The translations under genes and the position numbers were made by a program. From positions 186,001 to 250,000 of the forward strand of contig JAMCWD010000001.1 of NCBI GenBank assembly GCA_023475345.1: DNA of 64,000 nt, given 5' to 3'. This DNA comes from Chloroflexota bacterium. Lineage in GTDB: Bacteria; Vulcanimicrobiota; JAMCWD01. Below, piece after piece: positions 17,883 through 57,909 of the stretch; within the stretch, counting starts at the first letter, position 1, and every line of letters begins with the position of its first letter. The notes under the pieces were generated by a model, which made no database searches, was not told the DNA's origin, and saw nothing but the letters and a program-made list of their open reading frames with translations.

Positions 17883-19409
17883 GTGCGTTTTTTTTATGCG
17901 GCTTTAATATTTATATGCGGCATGGCGGTCATGGTGGTGGAGGTGCTGGGGACAAGGCTGGTAGCGCCTTTTTACGGCGCAGGCCTTTACGTCTGGTCTG
18001 CTTTGATACTGGTAACGCTGGTAGCTCTTGCGCTGGGATACTGGATTGGAGGGATATGGGCCGATAAGGCTCCCAGGCTGCCTGTACTTCTCGGGATTAT
18101 TGCAGCAGCAGGCTGCTTCATCCTTATTCTTCCTTTTATACATAAAGGCATTTTACTTACATTCGGAGGCATGGGGCTTGAAAAGGGTTCACTTCTTTCT
18201 GCAATTATCTTATTTACGCCACCGATGCTGCTCCTCGGAATGGTTTCACCGTTCTCAGTCAAGCTGCTTTCCTCAGGAGAAGAACACCTCGGGCTTACTG
18301 TAGGGAGCATCTACGGCGTTTCGACCATAGGTGGAGTTTTCGGCGTTCTTCTGTCTTCTTTCGTGCTAATCCCGCTTGTCGGCGTGAGAAAAGTATTTGT
18401 AGTTATAAGCATAGCCCTGATTTTACTTGCGCTTGTCGGGTGGCTCCTGACCCGTAAAAAAGCAGGCGTAATAGCAGCCGTTATACTTTTGATAATTTGC
18501 GGGATAGCATTTGTATATACCGCCCCGGCTCCTGCAAATGAAAGTATGTCCGTTGTAAAAAAGATAGAATCTCCATACGGCGAATTGAAGATAATCGATA
18601 TAGGCGATGCCAACCGCTGCCTGATGATGGACTGCGTCATGCAGGTGGCATATCCTCAAGACCGGGAGCTTGAGCCCGGCATCGGCCTCAAGAACAGGTA
18701 TAATATGGAACTGCTCCCTTATTACAATCCCGAAGGCAAGGACACCCTGATGGTCGGATTGGGAGGCGGACTGCTCGTCGGTTTACTGTCCCCGTATGGT
18801 TTTAATTTTGATAATGTAGAGATAGATCCCAGGGTCGTTGACATTGCGAAGAAATATTTTAATTTCGATAAGAGCTGTGATGTCGGCGACGGCAGGTATT
18901 ATCTCAAAACAAGAGATAAGAAATATGATTTTATAATCCTCGATGCGTTACAGGGAGAATCCCTTTCCACCTATCTCTTTACAAAGGAGATGTTCCAACT
19001 GACTAAGGATAAGTTGAAGCCGGGCGGGGTTCTTGCCATAGATTCTCTCGGGATACCCGGAAAATCCCGCATTTCCGATGTTATTGCAAATACCCTTTCC
19101 GAGGTTTATCCTTATGTTACATATTATAGAAGCCTGGAAGCGGATAGCCCTCAGCTTGTAACCTTTTTTGCATCCATGCAGCCCCTGGTTTTTAAAAATC
19201 CTGAAAAGCTTGCAAAAGAAAAAAATATTGAAAATTTCGATGAGATATTCGAAAGGGCATTGAGCAGGGAAGTTCATTTTATCCGGGACAAGTCGGTTAT
19301 TATAACCGATGACTACAACCCCCTGGAGGGCGAGTGGGGCAAGCTCAGTTTTACATGGAGGCAGGAAACCAGAAAAGTTTTCAGGGATGATGAAATCCTT
19401 TATTATTAA
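17883..19409 (+). CDS. Membrane-anchored spermidine-synthase-like protein
   Basis: 508 residues from a GTG with an upstream GGAGGAA. The N-terminal 215 residues contain seven to eight hydrophobic helices beginning with the family-typical GMAVMVVEVLGTRLVAPFYG. The C-terminal part (about 225-500) is a SpeE-like Rossmann methyltransferase fold: MVGLGGGLLVGLLS (SAM-binding glycine loop), VEIDPRVVDIAKKYF, FIILDALQGE and TDDYNPLE. Fusions of this kind are widespread in bacteria as fused MFS/spermidine synthase, but few have proven polyamine activity. The substrate is not established. It is probably the first gene of its own transcript, and the 5'-nucleotidase-like gene follows after 81 bp. Confidence 0.85.
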   Translation: MRFFYAALIFICGMAVMVVEVLGTRLVAPFYGAGLYVWSALILVTLVALALGYWIGGIWADKAPRLPVLLGIIAAAGCFILILPFIHKGILLTFGGMGLEKGSLLSAIILFTPPMLLLGMVSPFSVKLLSSGEEHLGLTVGSIYGVSTIGGVFGVLLSSFVLIPLVGVRKVFVVISIALILLALVGWLLTRKKAGVIAAVILLIICGIAFVYTAPAPANESMSVVKKIESPYGELKIIDIGDANRCLMMDCVMQVAYPQDRELEPGIGLKNRYNMELLPYYNPEGKDTLMVGLGGGLLVGLLSPYGFNFDNVEIDPRVVDIAKKYFNFDKSCDVGDGRYYLKTRDKKYDFIILDALQGESLSTYLFTKEMFQLTKDKLKPGGVLAIDSLGIPGKSRISDVIANTLSEVYPYVTYYRSLEADSPQLVTFFASMQPLVFKNPEKLAKEKNIENFDEIFERALSREVHFIRDKSVIITDDYNPLEGEWGKLSFTWRQETRKVFRDDEILYY

Positions 19410-19490: not shown

Positions 19491-21644
19491 ATGAAAAAGG
19501 TAATGATTGTCCTGGTTATATTGATATTATTAGGGCTGGGGATCTATTATTTTACCGCCCCTCGTCCTTTCAATATTATTTACACCAATAACCTCCAGGG
19601 GAGGATTTTACAGGATCAGATAAATAGTACATACCCGGCGGGGAACATTGAGGATGTTGCTGCAGTCATTTCCGGGCTTAAAGCCGATTTCGATAAAAAG
19701 GGCGAGGACTATATCATTGTTGACGGGGGCGATACCCTGACCGGCCAGCAGGATATATCCGGGGTTCTGGCAGGGAAGCCTGTTTATGATATTTTGAAAT
19801 CGTTAGGATACAACGCCATCCTTCTGCGTGAAAACGAATACGGGCTGGGTAAAAAACTGGAAGATCTCAAAGAAGGGCCTGTCCAGCTCGGTGTAGGGGT
19901 TATGGATTCCCAGGGCAAGCCGGTAAAGGTCACCCCCGAGGCCGGAGTCAAAGCGGGCCGTTCCGGTATTTCAATCCTCGGCCTGTTCATGCCGGATCTT
20001 AACCCGATGGACCAGAAGAACCGGGTAAAAATAGCCGGACATGATTTCAACCAATCTCTGGAAGCATTTAAAAAAGCCCTTGAATCGGCAGGAGGGAAGT
20101 TCAAGCTGCTGCTATATTATGAATCCTCATCCAAATGGCTGAGCGAGGTTAAAGGCATAGATCTCGTTATCCCGTCTCATTATGTCGATGAGGCTGGGCC
20201 GGAAAGGCAGTCTCTTGCAGGCGCCAAGCCCCAGGAGAACAGCTTCGAGTTGAAAAAAATCGGAGAGGTTACCGTTGCGCCCTTCGTAGATTCGCGTTTC
20301 AATGTAGGCGTTATCCATGTCAATCCCAGAGGGATAGGCAAATGGGAATATGAGGCCAGAATTATACCTGTCGGCGGCAAAACGGATGTCCCTTCCGCCG
20401 TTAAAGATGTCATCGGCAGCGCTCAGAAAGAATTTAAGGATAAAACCGAAGCTCCCGACAATTACCTCAGCATACAGAACGAGATACTTTGTTACGGGAA
20501 GGAAGGCTTCCTGAATACCCCGGCTGCAGGCAAGAAGTTCGGTGAGACTATAACTTCAAATTATATCGCCGACCTGATGCAGGAAAAAACCGGCGTCGAT
20601 ATAGCCGTACTCGATGTCAATTCCGTAAAAGGCGACCTTCAGGGACTTCAGGGAATAGAAGATCTCTCCCGGGTTCTGCCCGGCTGGACGGAGCTTGTTA
20701 CCCTTGAGCTTGACGGCAAAAAATTAAAAGCCCTCCTCCAGCAGAACTCAAAGGAAGACAAAGATTTTCTGACGATATCCGGCGCGGTAATAGCTTATTC
20801 CCCGGGTCAGGCCGGGAGCCTCCTCATGCTGTACAACGGGCGGCCGATTAATGATAAAGATAATTTCAGGATAGTTACCACCGCATATCTTGCCGACAAA
20901 AAAAGCGATCCTCCCATACTCTCCGCCGGGAAGAACAGGGTCAATACGGGCATCCTTTTAAATTATGTCCTGTTCGATGCGATGGCGGCCGGTTATTATC
21001 TCGAGATGCCTCCTTACAGGGTTTACGGTGATAAGCGGCAGGTGCTGGCTCTGGCAGACACCTATTTAAAGCAGGGATTGGAAGAGTATAAAAATCCTCC
21101 GACAAGTAAAAAGGGAGTTGAAACGCTGATCCTGGCGGCTTCACTTGCTCTTCACAGCGCAAAAGTAGTGAACGATATAAGGAAGGATTTGAAACCGCCC
21201 CTTTTCCAGTATGTTATGGGCCGTGCTTACATGAGGCTGGGCATGTGGCCCGAGGCTGCGGAAGAATTCAAGGCGGCGGTAAAGCTGGCCCCCAAAGATC
21301 CTTTATATAACTTCATGCTGGGAGATCTTTCTTATATGGTCGGCGCGTATCATGAGGCTGTAGGGTATTGCGACTCATCGATCAAGATCAAACAAAACCA
21401 GCCTGCGGCGTGGTTTATGCAGGGGGTTTCATATTTGAATGAAGGGCGCTCACCTTCAGCGGTCGGGTCATTGCAGAAAAGCATCGGGCTGGATAATGGA
21501 AATCTTGCCGGACACCTGATGCTCGGCAGGGCATACATGGGAGAAGGCAAGCTGAAGTTTGCAAGGAGCGCGTTTAAGGCCGCGGCTTCCATAGCTCCCG
21601 GAAACGAAAAAGTAATAAAGCTGTCAAATTCGCTGGCTCCTTGA
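19491..21644 (+). CDS. Degenerate 5'-nucleotidase/UshA-like protein fused to TPR repeats
   Basis: About 717 residues from ATG 19491 (AAGGA 10 nt upstream). The N terminus is a membrane anchor or uncleaved signal (residues 3-22). Residues 27-290 align in pattern with the 5'-nucleotidase metallophosphoesterase domain, but the metal ligands are replaced: TNDxHG is TNNLQG (32-37) and GNHE is RENE (114-117); only DGGD (78-81) is kept. Residues 330-500 resemble the 5'-nucleotidase C-terminal domain (SNYIADLM, VDIAVLDVNS, LDGKKLKALL). Residues about 520-715 are TPRs. It is probably a non-catalytic envelope scaffold; this is inference from the residue losses. It overlaps the next gene at TTGA. Confidence 0.8.
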   Translation: MKKVMIVLVILILLGLGIYYFTAPRPFNIIYTNNLQGRILQDQINSTYPAGNIEDVAAVISGLKADFDKKGEDYIIVDGGDTLTGQQDISGVLAGKPVYDILKSLGYNAILLRENEYGLGKKLEDLKEGPVQLGVGVMDSQGKPVKVTPEAGVKAGRSGISILGLFMPDLNPMDQKNRVKIAGHDFNQSLEAFKKALESAGGKFKLLLYYESSSKWLSEVKGIDLVIPSHYVDEAGPERQSLAGAKPQENSFELKKIGEVTVAPFVDSRFNVGVIHVNPRGIGKWEYEARIIPVGGKTDVPSAVKDVIGSAQKEFKDKTEAPDNYLSIQNEILCYGKEGFLNTPAAGKKFGETITSNYIADLMQEKTGVDIAVLDVNSVKGDLQGLQGIEDLSRVLPGWTELVTLELDGKKLKALLQQNSKEDKDFLTISGAVIAYSPGQAGSLLMLYNGRPINDKDNFRIVTTAYLADKKSDPPILSAGKNRVNTGILLNYVLFDAMAAGYYLEMPPYRVYGDKRQVLALADTYLKQGLEEYKNPPTSKKGVETLILAASLALHSAKVVNDIRKDLKPPLFQYVMGRAYMRLGMWPEAAEEFKAAVKLAPKDPLYNFMLGDLSYMVGAYHEAVGYCDSSIKIKQNQPAAWFMQGVSYLNEGRSPSAVGSLQKSIGLDNGNLAGHLMLGRAYMGEGKLKFARSAFKAAASIAPGNEKVIKLSNSLAP

Positions 21645-22906
21645 GTAAAAAGAGCAACATTGCAGGAGTGTGTCCGGTTCCCTTAAGGAATAAGATTTGT
21701 ACCGGCAGGGGAACAAATTTGATCCCTCTTTCCGGCATTTTGTTGATTTTATTATTACCGGCGATTTTCTGTTTTTTTACATCATGCTCAGGCGGGGAAA
21801 GGACAAAAGCAGTCTCTCAAAATGTGCTTTCCGATTCGTCCTGGGCGGCCTTCAGGGCCAATCCAGGGCGTACCGGGTTCTGCCGTTACCGCGGTCCCGG
21901 TAAACCAGTCGTATCTTTCCGCGTAAAGACCGGAGGAGCTGTTTTTTCATCCCCTTCGATCTCCAGTAATGGGACGGCGTTTGTAGGGTCGCTTGACGGC
22001 TGCCTTTACGCGGTAAGTCCCGAAGGCGGCTTGAAATGGAAGTATAAGACCGGAGGCTCCATAGTTTCTTCCCCGGCCATAAGCCATGATAACTCGGTCT
22101 GGTTCGGTTCGACGGATACCTGCATTTACGGCTTGAAAGAAAATGGGAAATTTATTTCCTCTTTCAAAACCGGCGACGCTGTGGAATCGTCTCCAATCAT
22201 AGATTCAAGCGGAAATATTCTTACCGGCAGCAATGACGGCAATATCTACTGCCTTGCTCCCGACGGCCGCCCGGTATGGAAATACAGTGTCGGGGATTCC
22301 ATAGTTTCTTCTCCTTCCTTATCCGGTGACGGCGCTATTCATTTCGGGGCGGAGAATTACGGTTTTTATGCGCTTTTTCCCGACGGCAAATTAAAATGGA
22401 GGTTCGATACTCGTTGTGAACTGCCGGGCACCCCTGCGGTGGACTCTGACGGCTCCGCGTTTATCGGCTCGGATGACGGCTACCTTTATGCATTTTCAAA
22501 AGAAGGCAATTTGAAATGGAAAATAGCCGCCGGGGCCAATATATCGGCATCCCCTGCTCTTTCTCCTGACGGGAAGTTATACATGGGTCTCAATGACGGC
22601 GGAATTATCGCAACAACAACGGCCGGAGTTATTCTATGGAAAACGCCGACGGAATGCGGCATTTCTTCATCGATTGCAGTTTCTTCATCGGAGACTCTTT
22701 ATGTGATGTCTGAAGATTCATACCTGTATTCGCTTTCGAGAGAAGGGAAAATTTTATGGAAGATGCCTCTCTGGGATTCTCAAGAGCCGCCGGGCGTTCC
22801 TTATAATATCTCTCTTGATGTAATAAGCTCTTCCCCGGCGATATCGGATGACGGCCGTATTTATGTCGGCTCGGGTGACGGTAATATTTATTGTATCGGC
22901 GAATAG
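21641..22906 (+). CDS. PQQ-like beta-propeller lipoprotein
   Basis: 421 residues. The start is placed at TTG 21641, overlapping the preceding stop (TTGA); the N region is unusually long before the hydrophobic segment and lipobox FFTSC (about residues 45-49), so a later start is possible. The mature part has seven to eight repeats of about 40 residues with the signature SSPxIxxxGxxxxGSxDGxLYxxxxxGxLKWxxxTG, i.e. PQQ-type blades as in BamB and alcohol dehydrogenases. No PQQ ligands or catalytic residues are evident, so a structural propeller is likelier than an enzyme. It is translationally coupled to the 5'-nucleotidase-like protein. Confidence 0.85.
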   Translation: MSKKSNIAGVCPVPLRNKICTGRGTNLIPLSGILLILLLPAIFCFFTSCSGGERTKAVSQNVLSDSSWAAFRANPGRTGFCRYRGPGKPVVSFRVKTGGAVFSSPSISSNGTAFVGSLDGCLYAVSPEGGLKWKYKTGGSIVSSPAISHDNSVWFGSTDTCIYGLKENGKFISSFKTGDAVESSPIIDSSGNILTGSNDGNIYCLAPDGRPVWKYSVGDSIVSSPSLSGDGAIHFGAENYGFYALFPDGKLKWRFDTRCELPGTPAVDSDGSAFIGSDDGYLYAFSKEGNLKWKIAAGANISASPALSPDGKLYMGLNDGGIIATTTAGVILWKTPTECGISSSIAVSSSETLYVMSEDSYLYSLSREGKILWKMPLWDSQEPPGVPYNISLDVISSSPAISDDGRIYVGSGDGNIYCIGE

Positions 22907-29002: not shown

Positions 29003-32000
29003 ATGCGAAAACCAGCAGTAAACTTTTTATTAATTATTCTGGGCGGGATATTTGTTTTTCTTCTGATGGCGCAAAGCCCGGTGAAAGCCGGAACCCCGGA
29101 GAAACATTTTGATTTGAACCATGTATTGAATGCGGGGCGGTTTGCTGAATTAACAGACCCGGGAGTCCGTGAAAAACTTGAGGAAAACGGCTTTGTAGTG
29201 CTGGAGAATCGAAGTTATGATCATTTTCATTCCATCTACGAAAAGGCCAGTAGATATGACGACCTTCCGGTGATTGTAACTGCCGATGCGGTGCTCCATT
29301 ATTATCATGTTCTTTATGACTATTTCCTCAAATCAATCGAAGAGGAGTACCTTGTAAAATCGCTTGAGAATATGAATCTGGTTTTGATAAAGGAGTGTAT
29401 TAATCAGGAGAAATCTGCCCCGCCGGAACTGGCTGATATTGTAAAGAAAAATCTTGCCTTCGCTGCCGTCGGAGAAAAATTGTTGAATCCCGGGTGGGAA
29501 GCGCCGTCTCAGGTTAAAAATCTTGTTGACGCCGAGGTGGGTTTAATCCAGCGGGCAAGCGGTTCCGCTGAATCTCCCATATTAGGCTACAAGGTAAATT
29601 ACGGCTCTTTTATACCGAGGGGCCATTACACCAGGAGTGAAACTCTGAAATGTTATTTCAGGGCTATGTCATGGTACGGGCAATCCACCTTCCGCTTTGA
29701 CAAAGTAGGGGAGACACAATCCGTGCTTTTGATGATCAAAGCATTCAGGGACTCCGGCAAAGCCGCCGGCTCCTGGGAAGAGGTTTACGAGCCGACTGTC
29801 CTTTTCGTCGGAGAATCGGATGATCTCACTCTTTATGATACAAGCCTTCTCATAAATCAAATATATGGAAAGAATCTCACCTGGAAAAACATAAGTGATG
29901 ATATTCTCCGCAAGAAGTTTGCTCTTTCCGCCGCGGCGCTTGTTGACAGGAAAAAGAAGATCTATGATCCATACGCTTCATATCAAAAGAAAGGCTTCAG
30001 GCTTATGGGTAAAAGGTTTGTGCCTGATTCTTACATGCTTCAGCAGCTTGTGTTTTCAAAAGTAGGGACAGAGGAAAAACCCCGCCTTATGCCGTCGGGA
30101 CTTGATGTGATGTCGGTATTGGGTTCCGAGCGGGCCGGAGAATTACAAAAAGGAGAAAGCAAATATAAAAACTACAACATCCAGATAGATAAATTGAAAA
30201 AAGAATTTGCCGAAATCCCGGCGGACACATGGGAGCAGAACCTTTACTGGGGCTGGCTCAACAGCCTCCGCCCCCTGCTTCCTAAAAAAGACGATAAATA
30301 TCCCGAATTCATGCAGAGTAAAGAATGGGAGAACAAGGAACTTAATGCCGCCCTTGGAAGCTGGGCGGAATTAAGACATGATACTATTCTTTATGTAGAA
30401 GCCAGTGCTTCTGAATGTGGAGAAGGTGCACATTTTGTGCCTATGAAACTTGCAAAGGGCTATGTAGAGCCATATCCGGAGCTTTATGACAGGCTGGCCT
30501 TCTTGACCCGCAAAACGGAAGTGGTCCTTTCAAAATTCGGTTTTCTCAAAAAAGAAGAAAAGAAGGAAGATGAAAATACACTGGGCGGTATTATTGATTG
30601 GAAGACCATGCTGAATGATTATCTTGGATTGGTAGAACATTTTGCCGCTATTTCCCGGAAGGAATTAGACGGCAAACCTTTGAGTGGTGAGGAGTACAAT
30701 GTTATTCGCAATTTCGGTGCCGTCACCGAAGACATTTATATGAAAAGTGAAAAGTTTTGTCCATGTCGTGGTTCATATGCGCCGTACCGTGGTATGGTGG
30801 AAAACATGGCGTTAATAGCTGACGTCCACCGGGACGACCTTCATAAGAAAACGCTTGAGGTCGGTGTTGGCCTTGCAAAAGAATTTCTGGCAATCGTTCC
30901 GGTGGATGGACATAACGTGCTGGCAAAAGGCGGTGTCTTTTCGTACTATGAATTCCCCTGGAGAGGCGGCCCGCTGACCGATGAAGCCTGGAGGGATATG
31001 CTGGCGGCTAAAAATGCACCTCCAAGGCCTGAATGGACGCAGGGGTATGCCGTTAATGCAGATTTTGTCAAGGCGGATAAATGGGGGTATCCCAGGGAGG
31101 GCTCGGGCAGCGAAGTTTCGGCACAACAGCTTATGTCAAAAAAATTACACCAGATTTCATGGGGTGACGGTGAATTCTCACCCTGCTGGTCGCCCCGTTA
31201 TGATGAGATTATCTTTTTCAGCAAGGTAGGAGATTACCGTCAGATCTTCATAACCCGCGACGATGGTTCCGACCGGGCCCAATTGAGCACCGAGCCTTAT
31301 CAGCATATTGATCCTGTCTGGAACCCCTGGGATTGTAAGATAATCTATGCCGCTGACAAAAGAAAAGAATACGAATTGTTTATTAGAGATTACGATATAA
31401 CTGAAGTTTTTATGGTGGGTGAATGGGCGGATTATCCTTATAATTATAAAGAAAAATCACTTACCGAAGGATTTGGAAACTGCTATTATCCCAATGCTTT
31501 CCATTTGTTTGAAAAGGGAGCTTACAGGAATGATTTCGCCGTAGCGTTGTTTTTCTCTTCTGATCATAATGGACAAAGTCAACTCTATAAGATGATAATC
31601 CCTTATTCGAGAGGGGAAAAGAAACCTGAAACACCTAAAACTCAATATATTGCTACCATTCCCGGAGAAAATTATCAGCCTTCATATTCTAATGGAAAAA
31701 TCGTCTTCACTTCCAAAAGAAACGGGGACGAAGATATATGGACGATGGATCAATATGGACAATACATCAAGCGCCTCACGAAGACGAAAGGCTCCGACTG
31801 CTTTCCCCGATTCTCGCCTGATGGCACGAAAATAGCTTTCGTATCCGAGCGAAGCGGAAATAAAGACATCTGGCTTATGGACACCGATGGGAAGAATCTT
31901 AAGCAGCTTACCAGCGATCCCGCCGCCGATTACACCCCCTGGTGGTCACCGTGCGGGACTAAAATTGTATTTTCTTCACTCCGTAACGGAGGCGTAAGCC

Positions 32001-32035
32001 ACCTGTGGGTCATGGAACTGGAAAAGGAAAAGTGA
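29003..32035 (+). CDS. DUF3160 protein fused to TolB-like beta-propeller
   Basis: 1010 residues with a Sec signal peptide (about 1-28). Residues about 40-700 match the DUF3160 pattern, with the early element VIVTADAVLHYYHVLYDYFL near 92-111 and the LRHDTILYVEASASECGEG segment near 457-475. Residues 715-1005 are PD40/TolB-type propeller blades (FSPDGTKIAFVSERSGNKDI, then WWSPCGTKIVFSS). DUF3160 has no established activity. An AGGGGG ribosome binding site precedes the ATG, and the stop overlaps the CapA-like GTG as GTGA. Four Cys near 588-590 and 473 could form a disulfide or metal site, but I cannot verify this. Confidence 0.85.
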   Translation: MRKPAVNFLLIILGGIFVFLLMAQSPVKAGTPEKHFDLNHVLNAGRFAELTDPGVREKLEENGFVVLENRSYDHFHSIYEKASRYDDLPVIVTADAVLHYYHVLYDYFLKSIEEEYLVKSLENMNLVLIKECINQEKSAPPELADIVKKNLAFAAVGEKLLNPGWEAPSQVKNLVDAEVGLIQRASGSAESPILGYKVNYGSFIPRGHYTRSETLKCYFRAMSWYGQSTFRFDKVGETQSVLLMIKAFRDSGKAAGSWEEVYEPTVLFVGESDDLTLYDTSLLINQIYGKNLTWKNISDDILRKKFALSAAALVDRKKKIYDPYASYQKKGFRLMGKRFVPDSYMLQQLVFSKVGTEEKPRLMPSGLDVMSVLGSERAGELQKGESKYKNYNIQIDKLKKEFAEIPADTWEQNLYWGWLNSLRPLLPKKDDKYPEFMQSKEWENKELNAALGSWAELRHDTILYVEASASECGEGAHFVPMKLAKGYVEPYPELYDRLAFLTRKTEVVLSKFGFLKKEEKKEDENTLGGIIDWKTMLNDYLGLVEHFAAISRKELDGKPLSGEEYNVIRNFGAVTEDIYMKSEKFCPCRGSYAPYRGMVENMALIADVHRDDLHKKTLEVGVGLAKEFLAIVPVDGHNVLAKGGVFSYYEFPWRGGPLTDEAWRDMLAAKNAPPRPEWTQGYAVNADFVKADKWGYPREGSGSEVSAQQLMSKKLHQISWGDGEFSPCWSPRYDEIIFFSKVGDYRQIFITRDDGSDRAQLSTEPYQHIDPVWNPWDCKIIYAADKRKEYELFIRDYDITEVFMVGEWADYPYNYKEKSLTEGFGNCYYPNAFHLFEKGAYRNDFAVALFFSSDHNGQSQLYKMIIPYSRGEKKPETPKTQYIATIPGENYQPSYSNGKIVFTSKRNGDEDIWTMDQYGQYIKRLTKTKGSDCFPRFSPDGTKIAFVSERSGNKDIWLMDTDGKNLKQLTSDPAADYTPWWSPCGTKIVFSSLRNGGVSHLWVMELEKEK

Positions 32036-33750
32036 GCCGTTTTCTAAGATGCGGCTTCCTGATAGCGCTGTTTGTATTCGCAGTCTTCCCCTCTTTTGCC
32101 GTATCTTCCCCGGACGTGAAGCCTGTTACGATCATCCTCACCGGTGATGTAATGGTCGGCAGAAGTGTGGAGGAGCGGGCGGATCTCATGGGGTTGGATT
32201 ATCCATTTAAAAAGATCTCCCCCGTGTTAAAATCTGCAGACATAACAATAGGCAACCTGGAAAATCCCCTGCTTGCTTCAGGTATGCCCGAGCCAAAAAT
32301 GATAACCCTGCGGGGACATCTTGCCTGGGCCGGTGTGCTGAAAAATGCAGGGTTCACAGTTTTATCCCTTGCAAACAACCACGCCCTGGATTACGGAGAG
32401 GGCGGGTTTAACCAGACCATCAAAGCCCTAGAAGGCGCAGGGATTACCCCCATCGGCACAGGCGAGAAATATAAAGTAATAAATGTCAGGGGGCTTCGCA
32501 TCGCCCTCGTTGCACGCACGGCATTCCCTCGGCGGACACACCCTTCGGTCATAAAAAAAGATGAGTTAGTGAGCGCCATATCAAGTGCAAAAAAAGAAGC
32601 GGACCTGGTCATAGTTTCCCTTCATTGGGGAGTCGAGTATGAAGATGCCCCAACTGCTGAGCAAAAGGAACTTGCTGATGAATGCATTAAAGCAGGCGCC
32701 GATGTTGTATTCGGGCATCATCCCCATGTGCTTCAGGGGCTGGAGGTGAAGGATGGAAAAGTCGTCGCCTACAGCATGGGGAATTTTCTTTTCGACCAGG
32801 GGATGCCGGGAACCTGTGAAAGTATGATCCTGAAGTTAACTATTGAAGGTGGAAAGATCGCCCGTGTAGATATAATCCCGACAATCATCCGTGACGGCAG
32901 GGTGTATCCTGCCGGAGGAAAAATGAGGGAGAAAATCCTGACACATCTTCGGAGCCTTTCTTCCGCACTCAGTGCCGGTCTTTACATAACGGGTACAAAA
33001 GCCATGCTGGCACTTTCTCCCGGCGAATATAAAAGAAGCTGGAAGGCTGACCTGGATGGCGACGGCGCAGAAGAAGATCTGACCATTGAGGACGGCATAT
33101 TTTCCATAAGCGAAAAAGGGCGTACAGCTTTCGAAACTCCCCCCGACTGGCTCGTCGAGGATGTGAAAATCTTTGATCTCATGGGGTACGGGAAGCCCCA
33201 GTTTATTATTCTGGCGTGGAAGCTTTCTCCTGAAAAAGAATGGAAGGGAGATCACTGGGCGTACAGGGCAAAGCCCGGGATCTTTGCAAATCAGCTTCTG
33301 GTTTACTCCTGGGTAAAGGGGGAGCCGAAGCCCGAATGGATAGGTTCCCCGCTGCCTTATTGCCTGAGGTTATTTGAATTTTCCAGGAAGGACGACAGTG
33401 TTTTCCTGACCGGTACAGAAGAAGATTACGATGATGAAGCAGCGGAAAAAGGACCTTTTGATTCGTTGTACAAGTGGACAGGCTGGCAGTTTGTTAGAAA
33501 GTCTGCCCCTGAAAAACCTGACAAAGATGGAAACGTAAAAAATTTAATTAATAACCTGATTTTACCGGCCGCCCCGGTGCATCCTATCGAAGAAAAGCAC
33601 ACGGATACGCCTTGCGATACTGACAACGTTCCTGACCCATGCTTTAAGGAGCGGGTAAACGCCGGGCAGGTCGCCGTATATCGCCGTCAGGCGTCTCCTG
33701 TCGGGCCAGAGACTCCTGTGGAATCCCAGCAGGTACCTGGCAAGCCATGA
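32032..33750 (+). CDS. CapA-family metallophosphatase-like protein
   Basis: 572 residues from GTG 32032 (GTGA overlap with the preceding stop; AAAAGGA upstream), giving a signal peptide over about residues 1-27. Residues 30-300 carry the CapA/PgsA set: TGDVMVGR, NLENPL, NNHALDYGEGG, HWGVEYED, GHHPHVLQG and YSMGNFLFDQ. Family members act in poly-gamma-glutamate or capsule handling, with a calcineurin-like fold. Residues 310-520 form an extra domain with a DxDGDGxE calcium-type loop (ADLDGDGAEED). The last 63 codons lie antisense to the end of the convergent nucleotidyltransferase-family gene and have no family character. Confidence 0.85.
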   Translation: MSRFLRCGFLIALFVFAVFPSFAVSSPDVKPVTIILTGDVMVGRSVEERADLMGLDYPFKKISPVLKSADITIGNLENPLLASGMPEPKMITLRGHLAWAGVLKNAGFTVLSLANNHALDYGEGGFNQTIKALEGAGITPIGTGEKYKVINVRGLRIALVARTAFPRRTHPSVIKKDELVSAISSAKKEADLVIVSLHWGVEYEDAPTAEQKELADECIKAGADVVFGHHPHVLQGLEVKDGKVVAYSMGNFLFDQGMPGTCESMILKLTIEGGKIARVDIIPTIIRDGRVYPAGGKMREKILTHLRSLSSALSAGLYITGTKAMLALSPGEYKRSWKADLDGDGAEEDLTIEDGIFSISEKGRTAFETPPDWLVEDVKIFDLMGYGKPQFIILAWKLSPEKEWKGDHWAYRAKPGIFANQLLVYSWVKGEPKPEWIGSPLPYCLRLFEFSRKDDSVFLTGTEEDYDDEAAEKGPFDSLYKWTGWQFVRKSAPEKPDKDGNVKNLINNLILPAAPVHPIEEKHTDTPCDTDNVPDPCFKERVNAGQVAVYRRQASPVGPETPVESQQVPGKP

Positions 33751-46288: not shown

Positions 46289-46307
46289 CATGAAAATTTT
46301 TGTCATG
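46289..46307. terminator. Hairpin between the response regulator and radical SAM array
   Basis: CATGA/TCATG arms with a near-complementary AAATTTTTG core form an almost perfect 19-nt palindrome in the 97-bp gap between converging transcripts. It overlaps the stop codon of the last array gene. Confidence 0.4.
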
Positions 46308-48549
46308 CGTGATAAAGATTGATCTTCATCACACCGGTTTCTTGTTTGAGATCATAGTCCTTAAAAAATTCCATCGTGGCGGTATGGTACCCTGTCCACG
46401 GATTGGCGCGGCGGAATTCGCAGTATTCGTGATCGCTCAAAGGATAAGGGAAGAGGCATTTCGAACAATTGTCCTTGATTTTACATTGTGAGCATCCGCG
46501 TTCGCTTTCTTTACGGCTTTTCAATTCCAGAAGCCGGGCTTTTATGGTTTGTTCCGAATCGCCGATCTTTCCGACGGGGCCTCCGTTGACACATGTTCTT
46601 AACGAGCCGTCATGCATTACATGGAGGGCAAGCAAATCGGCCCCAGGGCACGGGGCGGCCTGCCACCTGCACCCGTCGCAGATCAGGGCTCCCTGGCGAA
46701 TAAGCGCGGCGAACGGGGTCTTTTCCATGTCCCCCGAAGGCTTTGTAAATAAATCCTTCAGGCTTTTAACATCCTTCCTGGTATTGACGGTGTACAACAG
46801 GGAAGGCGGCTGCCTCCCGGGGGCGGTCTTCTTTACCCTGTAATTTCCGGATTGGGATATAGGTACAAGATGGAAGTCGGTAGTCAATCCATAACTGCGC
46901 TTGATGTCCCTGGTAACGAGCCATTGATAATAATATCTTCCTCTGTGTTTTCTTTTTCTCCGGTTTATAAAATAGGTGAAGCGCGTGGGAAGTGCGGGAT
47001 GCAGCGCTTGTAATAATTCATCGATGACATTTCGCGTCAGGAGCTCGTTCTCGAATAAAAGATATATCGAGGCGTTGATCCGTGCTATCCCTCTGAGCCA
47101 TTCGATGAATTCCGGGGAGATGCTTTTAAAATCATGAATGACGATGACCGGCGAAAATTCCAGGATTTCGCCTCTTGATCCGCTCCACCACCCGAATACC
47201 GCATCGGTGATTTTTCGCTGTCCCTTGTAATTAGTGTGATAAACGAAACTGCTTACAAGAAACGGGATTTCGCTCAGATCATAAGTATAAGCGACTTCAT
47301 AAGGCAAGATATCGCGGCCCGCCTTTAATTCCAGGCCGTAATCTTTATAGACATCCATCAATTCCGTTCCCGAGAAGATTGTCAGGCGGTTATGATATGA
47401 AAAATGAACACCGAGAGATTTTACCACCTCCACGGTTTTTCTGCCTTCTTCCAGGGTTTCTCCCGGAAGGCCGTTTATAAAGCTGACGCTGGGAAGCATC
47501 CCTAAATTTTTTGTATAATCGACGCATTCCCGTATAGCTTCGATGTACCGTTTTTCTTCTTTTAAATCTTCGGATGTCCCGCCCACTTTTTTAATATTGC
47601 GAAGGACCCTGGGAACGCCGCTTTCAAGCCCGAAATTCACCATCCTAACCCCTGCGGCATACATGAGATCCATGAGATCTTTATCGACACGGTCCGCCCG
47701 GATTTCGGCATGGAGGAAAAGTTTAATTTTTTCTTTTACGATCCTCTCACAAAGTTCCCGTGTCCTTTTTTTATCAAGGCAGAAATTGTCATCCCATATA
47801 TCATTGCGCCTTTTGTCGCTCTGTTTTCCAAGGCGTTCTTCGATATATTTCAAATCGTTTATTACCCTGTCTATAGAATGATAACGCACTTTATATCCGA
47901 ACATGTTCGGCCCGTTACAGAACGTGCAGTGAAAAGCGCAGCCGCGTGAAGTCTGTATTCCACCCGCCCATTCAAGCCCGGTTAAGACCCCGGCCAGGTG
48001 AGGCGAGGGGAGGATATCGAGCTCTTCGCCCTTGGGCCGGTCGATGCCTATCAAGGGCCGAAGAGGTGTCCTTACAACCCTGTCTCCCTGCGGGAAAGAG
48101 ATCCCTTCTATATCCCCCAGCTCCGATTTCCCTTCGGCATGACGAAGAAGATCGACTATAGCGTATTCGCCTTCTCCCCTGACACAAACATCGATGCCGC
48201 TGTATTTGAAAAACAACCCGTCGGAAAATGTTGCGGTAGGACCGCCTGCCACCTGTAAAATATCCGGCGCTTTCTCTTTGAATGCTTTTGAAAGAATGTT
48301 CACCATGAAAAACACTGGGTCATAAGTTGTAAAGCCTATTATCTTCGGTTTCAACTCCAGTGTCCTGTCGATAAGAGTCATCATGTCCATCGGGCGGTCG
48401 GGCATAAGGGCCGTGCTAACGCCGAGCGATTCGAGATACGCCCTCATGTAAGCAAGCCCGATGGTAAAATTCAGAGAAAACAGGCCGCCTGCCTTGGGCA
48501 GGATGAAAACAATGTCAGCACATTTTTTCTTTGTGCCTGTATTTACCAT
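46303..48549 (-). CDS. B12-binding radical SAM protein with SPASM-like C-terminus, array copy 1 (promoter-distal, most divergent)
   Basis: 748 residues. B12-binding-like domain 10-190 (GLAYMRAYLESLGVS, GGPTATF at 102-108, RGEGEYA at 124-130). Radical SAM signature C204-x3-C208-x2-C211 (GCAFHCTFCNGP), then WDDNFCLDKKR, FGLESGVPRVLRNIKK and GLPGETLEEG. A middle region (about 400-620) is shared with the other copies but more weakly. The C-terminal Cys set includes CRWQAAPC, then C686-x2-C689-x5-C695-x2-C698 and C710 (EYC). It differs from the others in lacking the SYSMG element of the N-terminus and in its LPKAGGLF start. It overlaps the upstream copy by 7 nt. Function is unknown, possibly radical methylation or peptide modification. 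Confidence 0.9.
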   Translation of the reverse strand: MVNTGTKKKCADIVFILPKAGGLFSLNFTIGLAYMRAYLESLGVSTALMPDRPMDMMTLIDRTLELKPKIIGFTTYDPVFFMVNILSKAFKEKAPDILQVAGGPTATFSDGLFFKYSGIDVCVRGEGEYAIVDLLRHAEGKSELGDIEGISFPQGDRVVRTPLRPLIGIDRPKGEELDILPSPHLAGVLTGLEWAGGIQTSRGCAFHCTFCNGPNMFGYKVRYHSIDRVINDLKYIEERLGKQSDKRRNDIWDDNFCLDKKRTRELCERIVKEKIKLFLHAEIRADRVDKDLMDLMYAAGVRMVNFGLESGVPRVLRNIKKVGGTSEDLKEEKRYIEAIRECVDYTKNLGMLPSVSFINGLPGETLEEGRKTVEVVKSLGVHFSYHNRLTIFSGTELMDVYKDYGLELKAGRDILPYEVAYTYDLSEIPFLVSSFVYHTNYKGQRKITDAVFGWWSGSRGEILEFSPVIVIHDFKSISPEFIEWLRGIARINASIYLLFENELLTRNVIDELLQALHPALPTRFTYFINRRKRKHRGRYYYQWLVTRDIKRSYGLTTDFHLVPISQSGNYRVKKTAPGRQPPSLLYTVNTRKDVKSLKDLFTKPSGDMEKTPFAALIRQGALICDGCRWQAAPCPGADLLALHVMHDGSLRTCVNGGPVGKIGDSEQTIKARLLELKSRKESERGCSQCKIKDNCSKCLFPYPLSDHEYCEFRRANPWTGYHTATMEFFKDYDLKQETGVMKINLYHA

Positions 48550-50858
48550 GACTGTTCTCCTGATTCGAAATTCATAATGCCGTCGGATATTAATGGCCCG
48601 GCGGCGTCTTTTCTTGCCGAGCCTTTTAATATTTCACCTTTGCGAAGACTGCCGATAAAATTATTTTTGTACCATTTATTATAACACATGAGCAGGAATT
48701 GGAGCATTCTTGGATACCACCCTGCCTGCCTCATAAAACTGCAATACTCTTCAGCCGTGAAGGGGGCCGTGAAAATACAGCGTGTGCAATGTGCCCTGAC
48801 GCGGCATTTGTTACAGCCTCTCTTTTTCTCTTCCTGCCGCGTAAGCTTCTCGACACGCTGTTTGAGATCTTCGAGACTGTCTCCCACATGCCCGATACAA
48901 CAGCCGTGCTCGCATGGTGAAAGCTCGCCGTTTTTACGCACATGTATTTTTTGAAGATTTAACGCCGGGCACAGCCTGCCTGTAAAGCGGCACGCAGTTG
49001 CAAGGGGGATGTTGCCCCGGATCATCCTGCCTATAACCGAATTTTCAAAATCAGCCGGGGGATCACTCATCGCGGAAAGAAAATATTCGGCATCTTTACG
49101 TGACAAGACATCGTAAAAGACGATCCGCTCACTCGTGCTTGTTCTCCGGCTTGAACGCCATCTATGGAAAGGATACCTGTAATAATCCGACGGGCAATAC
49201 AACGGGAACTCCTCGAGTAAATCGGTTTCAAGCCTGTAATGTTCAACACCTCTCGAGTTTTTATCATGTGTTTTCTCCAGCACCATGAATGACCTGCTCA
49301 GAAGATTCTCAACAAATTTTTTCTTAATGACTTTCATGTCATCCAGGGAAGGCGTTATTTCATCATACCTGAATATCATCTGAGAAAAAAAGCTGAGGTT
49401 TTGCTTGAGCCATTCCAGGAGAGATTCATCGACGGTTTTATGGTCTTCGATCAGGATATGGGGCCGGAAGATATTGAAATACGGGTGATTGATATCCCAC
49501 CATTCGAACAGAGCGTTTTCAAAAGAATGAACGAAATAGATGCTGTAATCCATCGGGTAAGCGTTCGGCAGAATGGGGATACTGTTCACATCATAGTTAT
49601 GTGTGCATTTGAGTGGGAGCACCCTTTCGCCGTGCCGTACCTTCATGCCGAACTTCTCATGGTTCCTGTGAATCTCGGAGCCGACGAATACTATAAAATT
49701 ATTGTGATAATATGTCTCCAGGTTAAGCTCTTCCACTGTTCTTATGGTAGTCATGCCCTCTTCATACGTTTCGCCCGGAAGCCCGAAGATAACGCTCACC
49801 GTTGCCGTTATTCCCAGTTCCTTACAATCTTTTATCGCTCTCTTAATCGCATTTACGTATTCTTTTTCTTCTCTCAGGTCGGGTGATGTGCCGCCTGCCT
49901 TTTTAATATTGCGGAGCACCCGCGGCACCGCGCTCTCAAGCCCGAAATTGAATCCCTTCAATCCGGCTTCGTGCAGCAGTTCCAGCAGATCTCTATCCAG
50001 CCTGTCCGCCCTGATCTGTGTGTGGAAATGGAATTTGAGGCCCTCTTTAATAATGGCTTCACACAGACGGCGCGTCCTTTCCCTGTCCAGGCAGAGGTTA
50101 TCGTCCCAGAAATCGATCCTCTGGAGTTCTTTCCTGGCGCCTAAGTTTTCATCTATTATTTTCAAATCCCGGATTACGCGGTCGATGGAGTGATAGCGGA
50201 CCCTGTTTTTAAACATGGCGGGGCCGCAGCAAAAAGTGCATGGATACACGCATCCCCTCGATGTCATAAGGCCGGGGTTTGCCTCAAGTCCCGTAAGGAT
50301 CCCCTGTTCGAAAGGGGAGGGGAGGACATCAAGCTCTTCGCCTCTTGGAGCATCGATGCCGATCAATTCCCGGTCCGGCGTGCGTAATATCCTGCCGCCT
50401 TCCCGGAAGCTGATCCCCCTGATGTCTTCAAGGCTCCCTGCACCTTCCGAATACCGGTAAAGCTCAAAGATGGCTTCCTCGCCTTCGCTGCGGACTGCAA
50501 CGTCTATGTCGGGGATGTTGTTAAGTATGATCTCTTCGCCGAAAGTGGCGGTGGGTCCGCCCGTAACTATCAGCAAATCGGGAATCGACCTGCGCGCTTC
50601 TTGCGCCGCAGCTTTTACATTCGAAAAAACCAGGTCGTATGCCGGTATGCCCAGTACCCGCACGCCTCTTTTTTTTATCTCCTGTAAAAAAGAGTGTAGT
50701 TCGCCTGAGCCGCCGGAAACAGATAAAGAAGGGATCCCCTTTGACTTCAGGTAGGCGGCCATGTATGCGGTTCCCATCGAATATGAAAACTTCTCAACTC
50801 CCATGAAATGAGAGATGAAGAAAGCCACCCCGGTATCTTCTTTGCCGGATCTTTTCAT
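48543..50858 (-). CDS. B12-binding radical SAM protein with SPASM-like C-terminus, array copy 2
   Basis: 771 residues. ATG 50858 (MKRSGKED) is chosen because it matches the start of copy 4, has AGAGG upstream and forms an ATGA junction with the mini-ORF before it; an in-frame ATG at 50876 is the alternative. B12-like domain 10-190 (SYSMGTAYMAAYL, GGPTATF near 100). C203-x3-C207-x2-C210 (GCVYPCTFCCGP). FWDDNLCLDRERT, FGLESAVPRVLRNI and GLPGETYEEG follow. The SPASM-like tail has CRFTGRLCPA, CEHGCCIGHVGD and C-x2-C-x5-C-x2-C (GCNKCRVRAHCTRC), then EYC. It has a longer C-terminal extension (about 45 residues after the last Cys-cluster helix) than its siblings. Confidence 0.9.
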   Translation of the reverse strand: MKRSGKEDTGVAFFISHFMGVEKFSYSMGTAYMAAYLKSKGIPSLSVSGGSGELHSFLQEIKKRGVRVLGIPAYDLVFSNVKAAAQEARRSIPDLLIVTGGPTATFGEEIILNNIPDIDVAVRSEGEEAIFELYRYSEGAGSLEDIRGISFREGGRILRTPDRELIGIDAPRGEELDVLPSPFEQGILTGLEANPGLMTSRGCVYPCTFCCGPAMFKNRVRYHSIDRVIRDLKIIDENLGARKELQRIDFWDDNLCLDRERTRRLCEAIIKEGLKFHFHTQIRADRLDRDLLELLHEAGLKGFNFGLESAVPRVLRNIKKAGGTSPDLREEKEYVNAIKRAIKDCKELGITATVSVIFGLPGETYEEGMTTIRTVEELNLETYYHNNFIVFVGSEIHRNHEKFGMKVRHGERVLPLKCTHNYDVNSIPILPNAYPMDYSIYFVHSFENALFEWWDINHPYFNIFRPHILIEDHKTVDESLLEWLKQNLSFFSQMIFRYDEITPSLDDMKVIKKKFVENLLSRSFMVLEKTHDKNSRGVEHYRLETDLLEEFPLYCPSDYYRYPFHRWRSSRRTSTSERIVFYDVLSRKDAEYFLSAMSDPPADFENSVIGRMIRGNIPLATACRFTGRLCPALNLQKIHVRKNGELSPCEHGCCIGHVGDSLEDLKQRVEKLTRQEEKKRGCNKCRVRAHCTRCIFTAPFTAEEYCSFMRQAGWYPRMLQFLLMCYNKWYKNNFIGSLRKGEILKGSARKDAAGPLISDGIMNFESGEQSW

Positions 50859-50956
50859 TCGGGCCTCTTCTTCCATGAGATCGCCGGATTACTTGATATT
50901 GCTATGCCGGGGATCATTTTCCTCCAATGCCCCCTGTATCCTTGCCTGTTGAACAT
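50855..50956 (-). CDS. Mini-ORF (33 codons) bridging array copies 3 and 2
   Basis: The first ATG (50956) overlaps the stop of copy 3 (TGATG), and the TGA overlaps the ATG of copy 2 (ATGA), so the ORF exactly fills the apparent gap. An internal in-frame ATG at 50917 has a strong GGAGG three bases upstream and would give a 20-residue peptide (MIPGIAISSNPAISWKKRPE). The full product is basic, with two Trp. The first 13 residues vaguely resemble the tail of copy 3 (NRQ..R.W.K against SRQADRWK), so a duplicated gene-tail relic is an alternative. Whether it is translated or acts as a precursor peptide is unknown. Confidence 0.4.
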   Translation of the reverse strand: MFNRQGYRGHWRKMIPGIAISSNPAISWKKRPE

Positions 50957-53319
50957 CAGGATTTCCATCTATCGGCCTGCCTTGAAAAATTCTTGTTGTA
51001 GCACAGCAGCAAAAACTGGAGCATTTTTGGCAGCCAGCCTGCGTTTCTCACAAAACCGCAATATTCTTCAACCGTAAACGGCCCGGTGAAAAGGCACCTG
51101 GCACAGCGATCTTTCGCGGCACAACCGGAGCATCCCCGCTTCTTTTCTTCTTCCGAAGCCAGGGTTTCTATTCTTTCATGCAGCAGGTCGAGCGAATCGC
51201 CGACACTCCCTATCTTTTCGCCGCTTATGCATGGAATTATTTTTCCGTTCCTGAAAACATGTAATTTTTTCAAAGTGCGCGCAGGGCATAGATGCCCCAT
51301 AAAGCGGCACGATGTCCCCAGCAGAATTTCTCCCCGGATCATTTTGCCTGTAATAGATCTGTCAAAATCTTCCGGCGGATCCGTCATTTCTTTTAAGAAT
51401 GATTTTACATCTCTGCGGGAATTGACGGTATGAAAAACAACGCGTTTCTCGCCCGTTACATTTTTAGCGGTAACGGCTTTTGAAAAAGGATAAGAACGAT
51501 ATTCCTCCGGCCAGTTCATGGGGGGCTTGCCTAGTAAAAGGGATCTCAGCCTGTATATCTTAAGGCCGCCGGTTGATTTGTCCTTCACTCTTTCAATAAC
51601 CTGGGCAGGGAATGCAAGTTTTCCATGCTCGATAATTTTTTTTATAGCTTCCAATCCTTCAGCCTTCAGCCTGATATCGTCGCCTGTCCCTGACATGCAG
51701 GAAAGGACAGGCTTCATCCAATCCATGACCGAGAAGTCTTCCGTGTCATACCGGCCGGAAAGCAAGCTGCCGCCTATAATGTCTTTGACGGTCTTCATCC
51801 AGGCCTTGCGGGGCCGCGTTTTCTCATAAAGAAAAATTATAGCAGAGAAGAAACCAACGATGCTCTTCAGCCAATCACGCAGGCCGTCATCTATTTCGTG
51901 GAAATCTTCCAGCACTACATGGGGACCTGATTCTTTGAAAAACTGATCGTTAACGTCCCACCACTCAAACAGCGCACTCTCGAAAGATCTCAGAAAAACG
52001 GGGTGATAATTGATTGAATAAGCATTGGGCAGCACGGGGATACTGTTGACATCATACGGATGCTTCACTTTCAGCGGCAGAATTTCGCTGCCGAATTCAA
52101 CCTCCATGCCGAATTTTCCCGCTTCCCTGTGAAGTCCCGACCCGATGAAAACCATGAAAGGATTATGAAAATATTTTTCCAGGTCAAGTTCTTCCACCAT
52201 CTTTAAAGTTTTCATTCCTTCTTCGTAAGTCTCTCCCGGAAGGCCGAACATAACGTTGACGGCAGGCACTATCCCGATTTTTTTACAAATCTTAACCGCA
52301 CTTCTAATTGCTTCCACGTGTTGTTTTTCTTTTTTAAAATCAGGAGAATTGCCGTTTACTTTCCTGATGTTGCGAAGCACCCGGGACACCGCGCTTTCAA
52401 GCCCGAAATTGATCCTGCGGATCCCCGCTTCCCGCATCAACTCGAGCAGGTCGCGGTCCATAAAATCGGCGCGCGCCTGAATGTTGAAATGGAATTTCAA
52501 CCCTTCCCTTATAATCGCTTCGCAAATCCGGCGGGGACGGCTCCTGTTCACGCAGAAATCGGCATCGAAAAAATCGACGCCGGTTATTTCATTTTTGCCC
52601 GATGTGTTTTCTTCGATAATCTTCAGATCCTTAATGACCTGATCGACCGAATGGAACCTTACCTTTCCCCTGTACATGCCGGGGCCGCAGCAAAAAGCGC
52701 AGTTAAAAAGGCATCCCCGCGATGTTATTACCCCGGCCCTGTCCTCCAGGCCCGTGAGGATGCCCTGTTCGAACGGGGACGGCAGTATATCCAATTCGGC
52801 TCCCCTGGCTCCGCCGAGTCCTGCCAGAGGTCGATCCGGCGTGCGTTCTATCCTGTCTCCATCCCTGAAGCTCAACCCTTTTATATCTTCCAGGCTTACT
52901 CTGCCGGACATGTTTTCATAAAGCTCGTATATCGTTTCTTCCCCTTCGCCTCTTACCACGACATCAATTTCGGGTATGCCGGCAAGCACGACATCATCCG
53001 CAAGCGTTGGGGTGGAGCCGCCGGCGACTATCATCAGACCGGGCATCGATCTCCTGGCTTCCTTTGCCATCTTTTTAACGACAGGAAACAAAGCATCGTA
53101 AACCGGCAATCCCAGAAGCCTGACGCCTTTATCTTTCATTTCCCGAACGGCGGAATTAATATCGACTTCATTCCCGGAAAGAGTTACCGAGTAAACCCCC
53201 TTTTGCTTCAGGTAAGCCCCCATGTAAGCGGTCCCCATTGTATAAGCAAACTTTTCCACTGCAGGAAAATTAGAAACGAAAAACGCCACCTCCGTGTTTT
53301 TGACGCTCGCGTTTCTCAT
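50956..53319 (-). CDS. B12-binding radical SAM protein with SPASM-like C-terminus, array copy 3
   Basis: 787 residues, the longest complete copy. The B12-like domain has a variant glycine element GGSTPTL (near 100-106) instead of GGPTATF. The radical SAM signature is C203-x3-C207-x2-C210 (GCLFNCAFCCGP). VDFFDADFCVNRSR replaces the usual WDDNLCLD. FGLESAVSRVLRNI and GLPGETYEEG are kept. An insertion of about 40-45 residues (around residues 500-550, with MDWMKPVL and GDDIRL) is shared only with copy 8. C-terminal: CRFMGHLCPA, IPCISGEKIGSVGD, GCSGCAAKDRCARC and EYC. It overlaps copy 4 by 4 nt. Confidence 0.9.
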   Translation of the reverse strand: MRNASVKNTEVAFFVSNFPAVEKFAYTMGTAYMGAYLKQKGVYSVTLSGNEVDINSAVREMKDKGVRLLGLPVYDALFPVVKKMAKEARRSMPGLMIVAGGSTPTLADDVVLAGIPEIDVVVRGEGEETIYELYENMSGRVSLEDIKGLSFRDGDRIERTPDRPLAGLGGARGAELDILPSPFEQGILTGLEDRAGVITSRGCLFNCAFCCGPGMYRGKVRFHSVDQVIKDLKIIEENTSGKNEITGVDFFDADFCVNRSRPRRICEAIIREGLKFHFNIQARADFMDRDLLELMREAGIRRINFGLESAVSRVLRNIRKVNGNSPDFKKEKQHVEAIRSAVKICKKIGIVPAVNVMFGLPGETYEEGMKTLKMVEELDLEKYFHNPFMVFIGSGLHREAGKFGMEVEFGSEILPLKVKHPYDVNSIPVLPNAYSINYHPVFLRSFESALFEWWDVNDQFFKESGPHVVLEDFHEIDDGLRDWLKSIVGFFSAIIFLYEKTRPRKAWMKTVKDIIGGSLLSGRYDTEDFSVMDWMKPVLSCMSGTGDDIRLKAEGLEAIKKIIEHGKLAFPAQVIERVKDKSTGGLKIYRLRSLLLGKPPMNWPEEYRSYPFSKAVTAKNVTGEKRVVFHTVNSRRDVKSFLKEMTDPPEDFDRSITGKMIRGEILLGTSCRFMGHLCPARTLKKLHVFRNGKIIPCISGEKIGSVGDSLDLLHERIETLASEEEKKRGCSGCAAKDRCARCLFTGPFTVEEYCGFVRNAGWLPKMLQFLLLCYNKNFSRQADRWKS

Positions 53320-57832: not shown

Positions 57833-57909
57833 CGGTTAAGCTTCCCCCTATAAAAGTTATTCGCATCAAGCGACCCGGTAAATAGCAACGATTCCTCCGT
57901 CAATATCAT
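57829..57909 (-). CDS. Mini-ORF (26 codons) bridging array copies 6 and 5
   Basis: The ATG at 57909 overlaps the stop of copy 6 (ATGA) and has an excellent GGGAGGAG Shine-Dalgarno sequence four bases upstream. The TGA at 57829-57831 overlaps the GTG of copy 5 (GTGA). The frame therefore fills the 73-bp gap exactly. The product starts MILTEESLLFTGSL and ends NNFYRGKLNR. It could be a coupled small peptide or only a translational bridge. The NNF..GKL end resembles the NNFIGSLRKG tail of copy 2, so a gene-tail remnant is also possible. Confidence 0.45.
   Translation of the reverse strand: MILTEESLLFTGSLDANNFYRGKLNR

Follow-up and report, generated by a model that had tools for sequence, protein, structure and literature searches.

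An apparent pseudo-5'-nucleotidase joined to tetratricopeptide repeats, and its propeller-bearing relatives in two "Candidatus Eremiobacterota" genomes

RESULTS

A pseudo-5'-nucleotidase-TPR gene adjoins a propeller gene

The window, by which we mean the whole 64,000-nucleotide stretch of DNA that was analysed, carries a gene for a 5'-nucleotidase-like protein that ends in tetratricopeptide repeats (TPRs), followed by a β-propeller gene (Table 1). The open frame on which a preliminary description of the protein was based is real; it ends with a stop at 21644 and starts at ATG 19491 or at TTG 19482. The N-terminal helix suggests that the protein is anchored in the membrane and that the remainder is exported; a lipobox was looked for at the N terminus and not found. 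PF02872 matches with 58.4 bits (cut-off, 23.6), and the Metallophos N domain, PF00149, was not detected at an E value of 0.1, though the fold was recovered by structure. TPR_2 matches with 68.8 bits (cut-off, 27), and four tandem 34-residue helical units can be read in the sequence, together with one further helical hairpin; the earlier count of "six or so" repeats was too high. The propeller and TPR lipoproteins described as neighbours are both present.

Table 1. Features of the pseudo-5'-nucleotidase-TPR gene and the adjoining propeller gene, in window coordinates
Feature	Position	Strand	Remarks
Pseudo-5'-nucleotidase-TPR gene	19491..21644	+	717 aa from ATG 19491; alternative start TTG 19482
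N-terminal membrane helix, residues 2-22	19494..19556	+	Helix in predicted structure
Metallophosphoesterase-fold N domain, metal ligands lost	19557..20453	+	Model residues 23-321 match 3gve
TNNLQG instead of TNDxHG (TNDMHG in L001)	19584..19601	+	N34, Q36
DGGD, DxGD aspartate D81 retained	19722..19733	+	N in 4/5 aligned clade members
RENE instead of GNHE	19827..19838	+	E114, N115
PSHYVD instead of GGHSHT	20172..20189	+	H230 retained, V232; four relatives have IPxRYH or IPxRFH
5_nucleotid_C domain, PF02872	20526..20903	+	58 bits; substrate-site residues altered
Four TPRs, about residues 572-708	21204..21614	+	Relatives continue into propeller where window gene stops
PQQ/BamB-type β-propeller lipoprotein	21641..22906	+	Directly 3' of window gene; 4-base overlap, or 73-base gap with a later TTG

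Just upstream, at 17883-19409, lies the gene for a fused MFS/spermidine synthase-like protein (NF037959, 177 bits). Farther along, a PGA_cap protein (237 bits), which we take to be another branch of the metallophosphoesterase fold, is encoded at 32005-33750 and adjoins a DUF3160 protein at 29003-32035. The minus strand holds at least six long tandem frames at 46303-62542, with similar starts (such as SYSMGxAYMAAYLK); they are apparently a tandem gene family.

Most signature residues of the active site are replaced

According to one published account of 5'-nucleotidases (PMC8071527), the dimetal centre and a catalytic histidine belong to the N domain; the substrate site, which includes two aromatic residues, is in the C domain. 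As the reference for motif comparison we used L001, an intact nucleotidase of 541 residues encoded elsewhere in the same genome; residues are numbered from the ATG. Eight signature residues, comprising the dimetal ligands and the catalytic histidine, were followed: D, H, D, N, H, H, H, and H/Q. The UshA site residues are D41, H43, D84, N116, H117, H217, H252, and Q254. In a 44-protein alignment the window protein retains two of the eight, D81 and H230. The preliminary description had singled out TNNLQG and RENE as altered motifs, and comparison with L001 confirms both; in addition, SHxG (SHNG in L001) has become YYES, with Y210. The C-domain substrate site has changed as well, with NxGGIR replaced by DVNSVK, PF by PG, and GGxxxF by KKSDPP. 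The protein therefore departs from a UshA-type catalyst both in the dimetal ligands and histidine and in the C-domain substrate site (NxGGIR and the aromatic residues).

Because most of the residues that hold both catalytic metals are absent, the window protein would not be expected to hydrolyse nucleotides. Loss of the catalytic site, here and throughout the clade described below, is well supported by the sequence comparisons. Replacements at the signature positions vary over the clade (N/G/D/S, Q/N, E/D/R, and Y/R/S), with no uniform set of acidic residues or histidines taking the place of the lost ligands in its members.

The two-domain fold is retained in the predicted structure

Structure prediction, which the preliminary description had proposed, agrees with its view that the two-domain fold persists, as does the PF02872 match. 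The model of the window protein was built on a six-row alignment and has a mean pLDDT of 61.6. Foldseek matched it to 5'-nucleotidases with an E value of about 1e-24, and its N domain aligned with YfkN (3gve) over 268 residues (Z, 22.8; rmsd, 3.4). Full-length structural alignments to 5'-nucleotidases gave large rmsd values, about 8 to 15, as expected if both domains sit at different angles. The TPR part was poorly folded in this first model (pLDDT about 24); a separate model of the last 217 residues gave helical hairpins, folded in part (mean pLDDT, 66.7), and its best structural matches were mostly TPR proteins (Z up to 10.7).

Ligand loss and fusion recur in a single clade

Sampling of 42 loci (the window, L001, and two sets of 20) yielded 44 nucleotidase-related proteins. 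Six of these make up a family: the window protein, two further copies from its own genome (G000), and three fusions of 921 to 1121 residues from another Ca. Eremiobacterota genome (G008). The G000 paralog L036:509-3670 (1053 residues) carries TPRs and a PQQ-type propeller on the same chain as its nucleotidase fold; L035:7759-10215 (818 residues) consists of a C-domain remnant, a short linker, and a propeller, without a recognisable metallophosphoesterase domain. A PQQ/BamB-type β-propeller stands at the C-terminal end of the chain in five of the six members. The window protein is the exception; it fails this trait of the clade, yet its nucleotidase part belongs there. The TPR fusion reported initially is thus present, and the fusion as a whole is larger than had been seen, the propeller being in the same chain in most members. 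TPR content varies, and Pfam at an E value of 0.01 gives none in L037, L038, or L035; visual inspection nevertheless suggests a TPR-like hairpin ahead of each propeller, including those of these three.

All six proteins of the TPR/propeller type retain one or two of the eight signature residues. Among the other nucleotidases sampled from the phylum, 37 of 38 retain all eight and one retains five, a tally that covers the fetched loci, so that weaker degenerate copies may exist among the other rows of the 149-genome scan described below. In the homolog survey that had been suggested, ligand loss and TPR/propeller fusion accordingly recur in 6/6 members. The protein with five residues, L096:2266-3873 from G008, lies outside the clade and is partly decayed: SHxG has become SQLA and GGHSH has become GGQCL, with TNDIHG and GNHD retained.

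In a nucleotidase tree from which L035 was left out, the five members that could be aligned group together as one clade (100/100), which the removal of 105 motif columns left in place with the same support (100/100). The window protein is nested among fused members (99/93); without the motif columns, the smallest starred set that contains it is the entire clade of five. With A1 we scanned 149 genomes of this phylum, which is little studied and largely uncultured; rows at 656 to 789 bits came from G000 and G008 only. Those five rows all belong to A1 itself. Below them comes L040, which is intact and scores 179 bits, and L035 scores 75. Beyond the phylum, an A1 scan with one 10-residue pattern over 84,980 species, which is weak for distant kin, returned three loci from one Ca. 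Eremiobacterota assembly. No matches were found in phages, plasmids, or viral contigs.

The downstream propeller is collinear with a fused relative

The propeller lipoprotein encoded directly downstream is a probable partner of the window protein. The window gene ends at the TPR/propeller boundary of its relatives, and the gene pair and the L036 fusion align collinearly: residues 7-714 of the nucleotidase-TPR protein map onto 11-693 of the fusion, and residues 36-420 of the propeller onto 690-1052. Each of the three G000 copies is followed immediately by a propeller gene (overlaps of 4 and 41 bases and a gap of 15 bases), but none of the three G008 members is; in G008 one such gene lies 3.6 kb on. 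A fixed nucleotidase-propeller operon was rejected on this basis. Scans against shuffled sequence showed no clear excess of promoters (11 found; mean, 11.7) or terminators (14 found, against 9.9 with an sd of 3.3).

The cluster (99/98) that contains the window's propeller also takes in L126:6028-7263, which has no adjoining pseudo-nucleotidase, and the propeller that follows the L036 fusion; the fused propellers fall elsewhere. The simplest history would therefore be the duplication of a two-gene unit, a fusion plus a lone propeller, after which the fused propeller would have disappeared from the window copy. The case for one fusion event with later loss in the window gene rests on the nucleotidase tree, since the propeller tree is mostly unresolved, with 1 of 19 inner branches starred and an unsettled bootstrap. 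On the propeller tree, four changes are required for the five fused propellers, and 203 of 500 shuffles required as few.

PQQ-type propeller genes also form arrays on contig C43 of G000, at about 129-135 kb and 296-319 kb (L122, L035, and L124), and several of the array propellers carry lipoprotein-like signals. Most PF13360 matches of G000 lie on the window's contig.

Columns at and around the former metal site are more conserved than random ones within the clade

In the five alignable members, conservation at the eight former ligand columns exceeds that of random columns, with 233 of 10,000 draws reaching it; for the 32 columns up to three positions away the excess is stronger (0 of 10,000 draws). 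The pocket may therefore bind something. Residues specific to the clade recur there: N at the DxGD aspartate and R and H at the two GGHSH histidines, each in 4/5 members, and P228, P264, and S268 in 5/5. The C domain retains the N and R of NxxxxR in L036, L037, and L038 (3/5). These observations lend some credit to a tentative alternative in which the cleft has been rebuilt as a metal-free receptor that binds nucleotide, phosphate, or another small ligand without cutting it, and that signals or recruits through the TPRs and the propeller. The window member, however, departs most from this pattern, with H and V for R and H, D and K for N and R, and D81 where the others have N; the loops are glycine-rich, so that conservation around the pocket may come from structure alone; and the recognisable N domain is altogether gone from L035. 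We consider it rather doubtful that the clade represents a new class of bacterial envelope receptor, in which the conserved Asn/Arg/His set would bind an anionic ligand, with neither metal nor cleavage, and closure about the hinge would be relayed to the TPRs and propeller.

Enzymatic activity, through other metal ligands or another chemistry, would fit the retention of D81 and H230 and of the two-domain fold in the predicted structure. It is nevertheless improbable: six of the eight signature residues are gone, acids or histidines do not consistently take their place, and the substrate residues of the C domain are changed too. Least credible of all is a decaying relic under little constraint. 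The eroded L035 copy and the long end branches (0.82 to 2.75, where the median is 0.49) might indicate one, but six long open frames persist in two genomes of different families with the domain order retained, and 28 columns are invariant over five proteins with 26-31% identity to the window protein.

DISCUSSION

On balance, we think that the window protein is probably a non-catalytic, membrane-tethered adaptor of the envelope. The protein, putatively exported and membrane-anchored and with a UshA-type fold that lacks most of the metal-holding residues, would hydrolyse no nucleotides, and the fold would be retained as a hinged module flanked by the membrane anchor and the TPR array. From there the chain continues into a PQQ/BamB-type propeller in five of the six family members; for the window protein the next gene would supply the propeller. 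The TPRs and the propeller, whether in cis or from the neighbouring gene, could then hold partner proteins near the membrane.

Several observations point to an adaptor of this kind: the loss of ligands, the single clade, the retained fold, the propeller fusions, the collinear gene pair, the adjacent propellers, and the presence of intact L001 elsewhere in the genome. Weighing on the other side are the lack of adjacent propeller genes in G008 (0/3), the solitary L126 propeller, the varying TPR content, and the conserved flanks of the pocket, which a pure spacer would not need. The preliminary description saw a catalytic domain recruited as a scaffold. A scaffold role may well be correct, and the catalytic loss and the TPR/propeller fusions fit it; the conserved metal-site columns speak against the scaffold being inert.

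Annotation would label these proteins nucleotidases, because the PF02872 match exceeds its cut-off. In this clade a whole enzyme fold has lost its metal site while being built into chains with TPRs and propellers. Intact relatives in the same genomes serve as controls, which makes the clade a clean case for asking what use is made of a former catalytic cleft.

Pseudoenzymes kept as scaffolds or allosteric parts are a general class, and the likeness to them lies in a fold retained with its catalytic residues lost. In the literature searched we found no description of a pseudo-5'-nucleotidase with TPRs or a propeller, nor of the nucleotidase-TPR-propeller build as a whole. PF13360 and PF13570 match both the gene downstream and the C-terminal region of the fusions, a likeness to propeller lipoproteins of the BamB/PQQ_2 type; the window's propeller falls below the cut-off of NCBIfam TIGR03300 for BamB itself (89.2 against 285.2 bits). 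The closest comparison is with the 5'-nucleotidases of the UshA/YfkN/CD73 type (PF00149 plus PF02872). The window protein shares their two-domain fold and motif order, and its model matches 3ivd, 1ush, and 3gve; it differs from them in the lost metal and substrate residues and in the fusion to TPRs, to which its relatives add a propeller.
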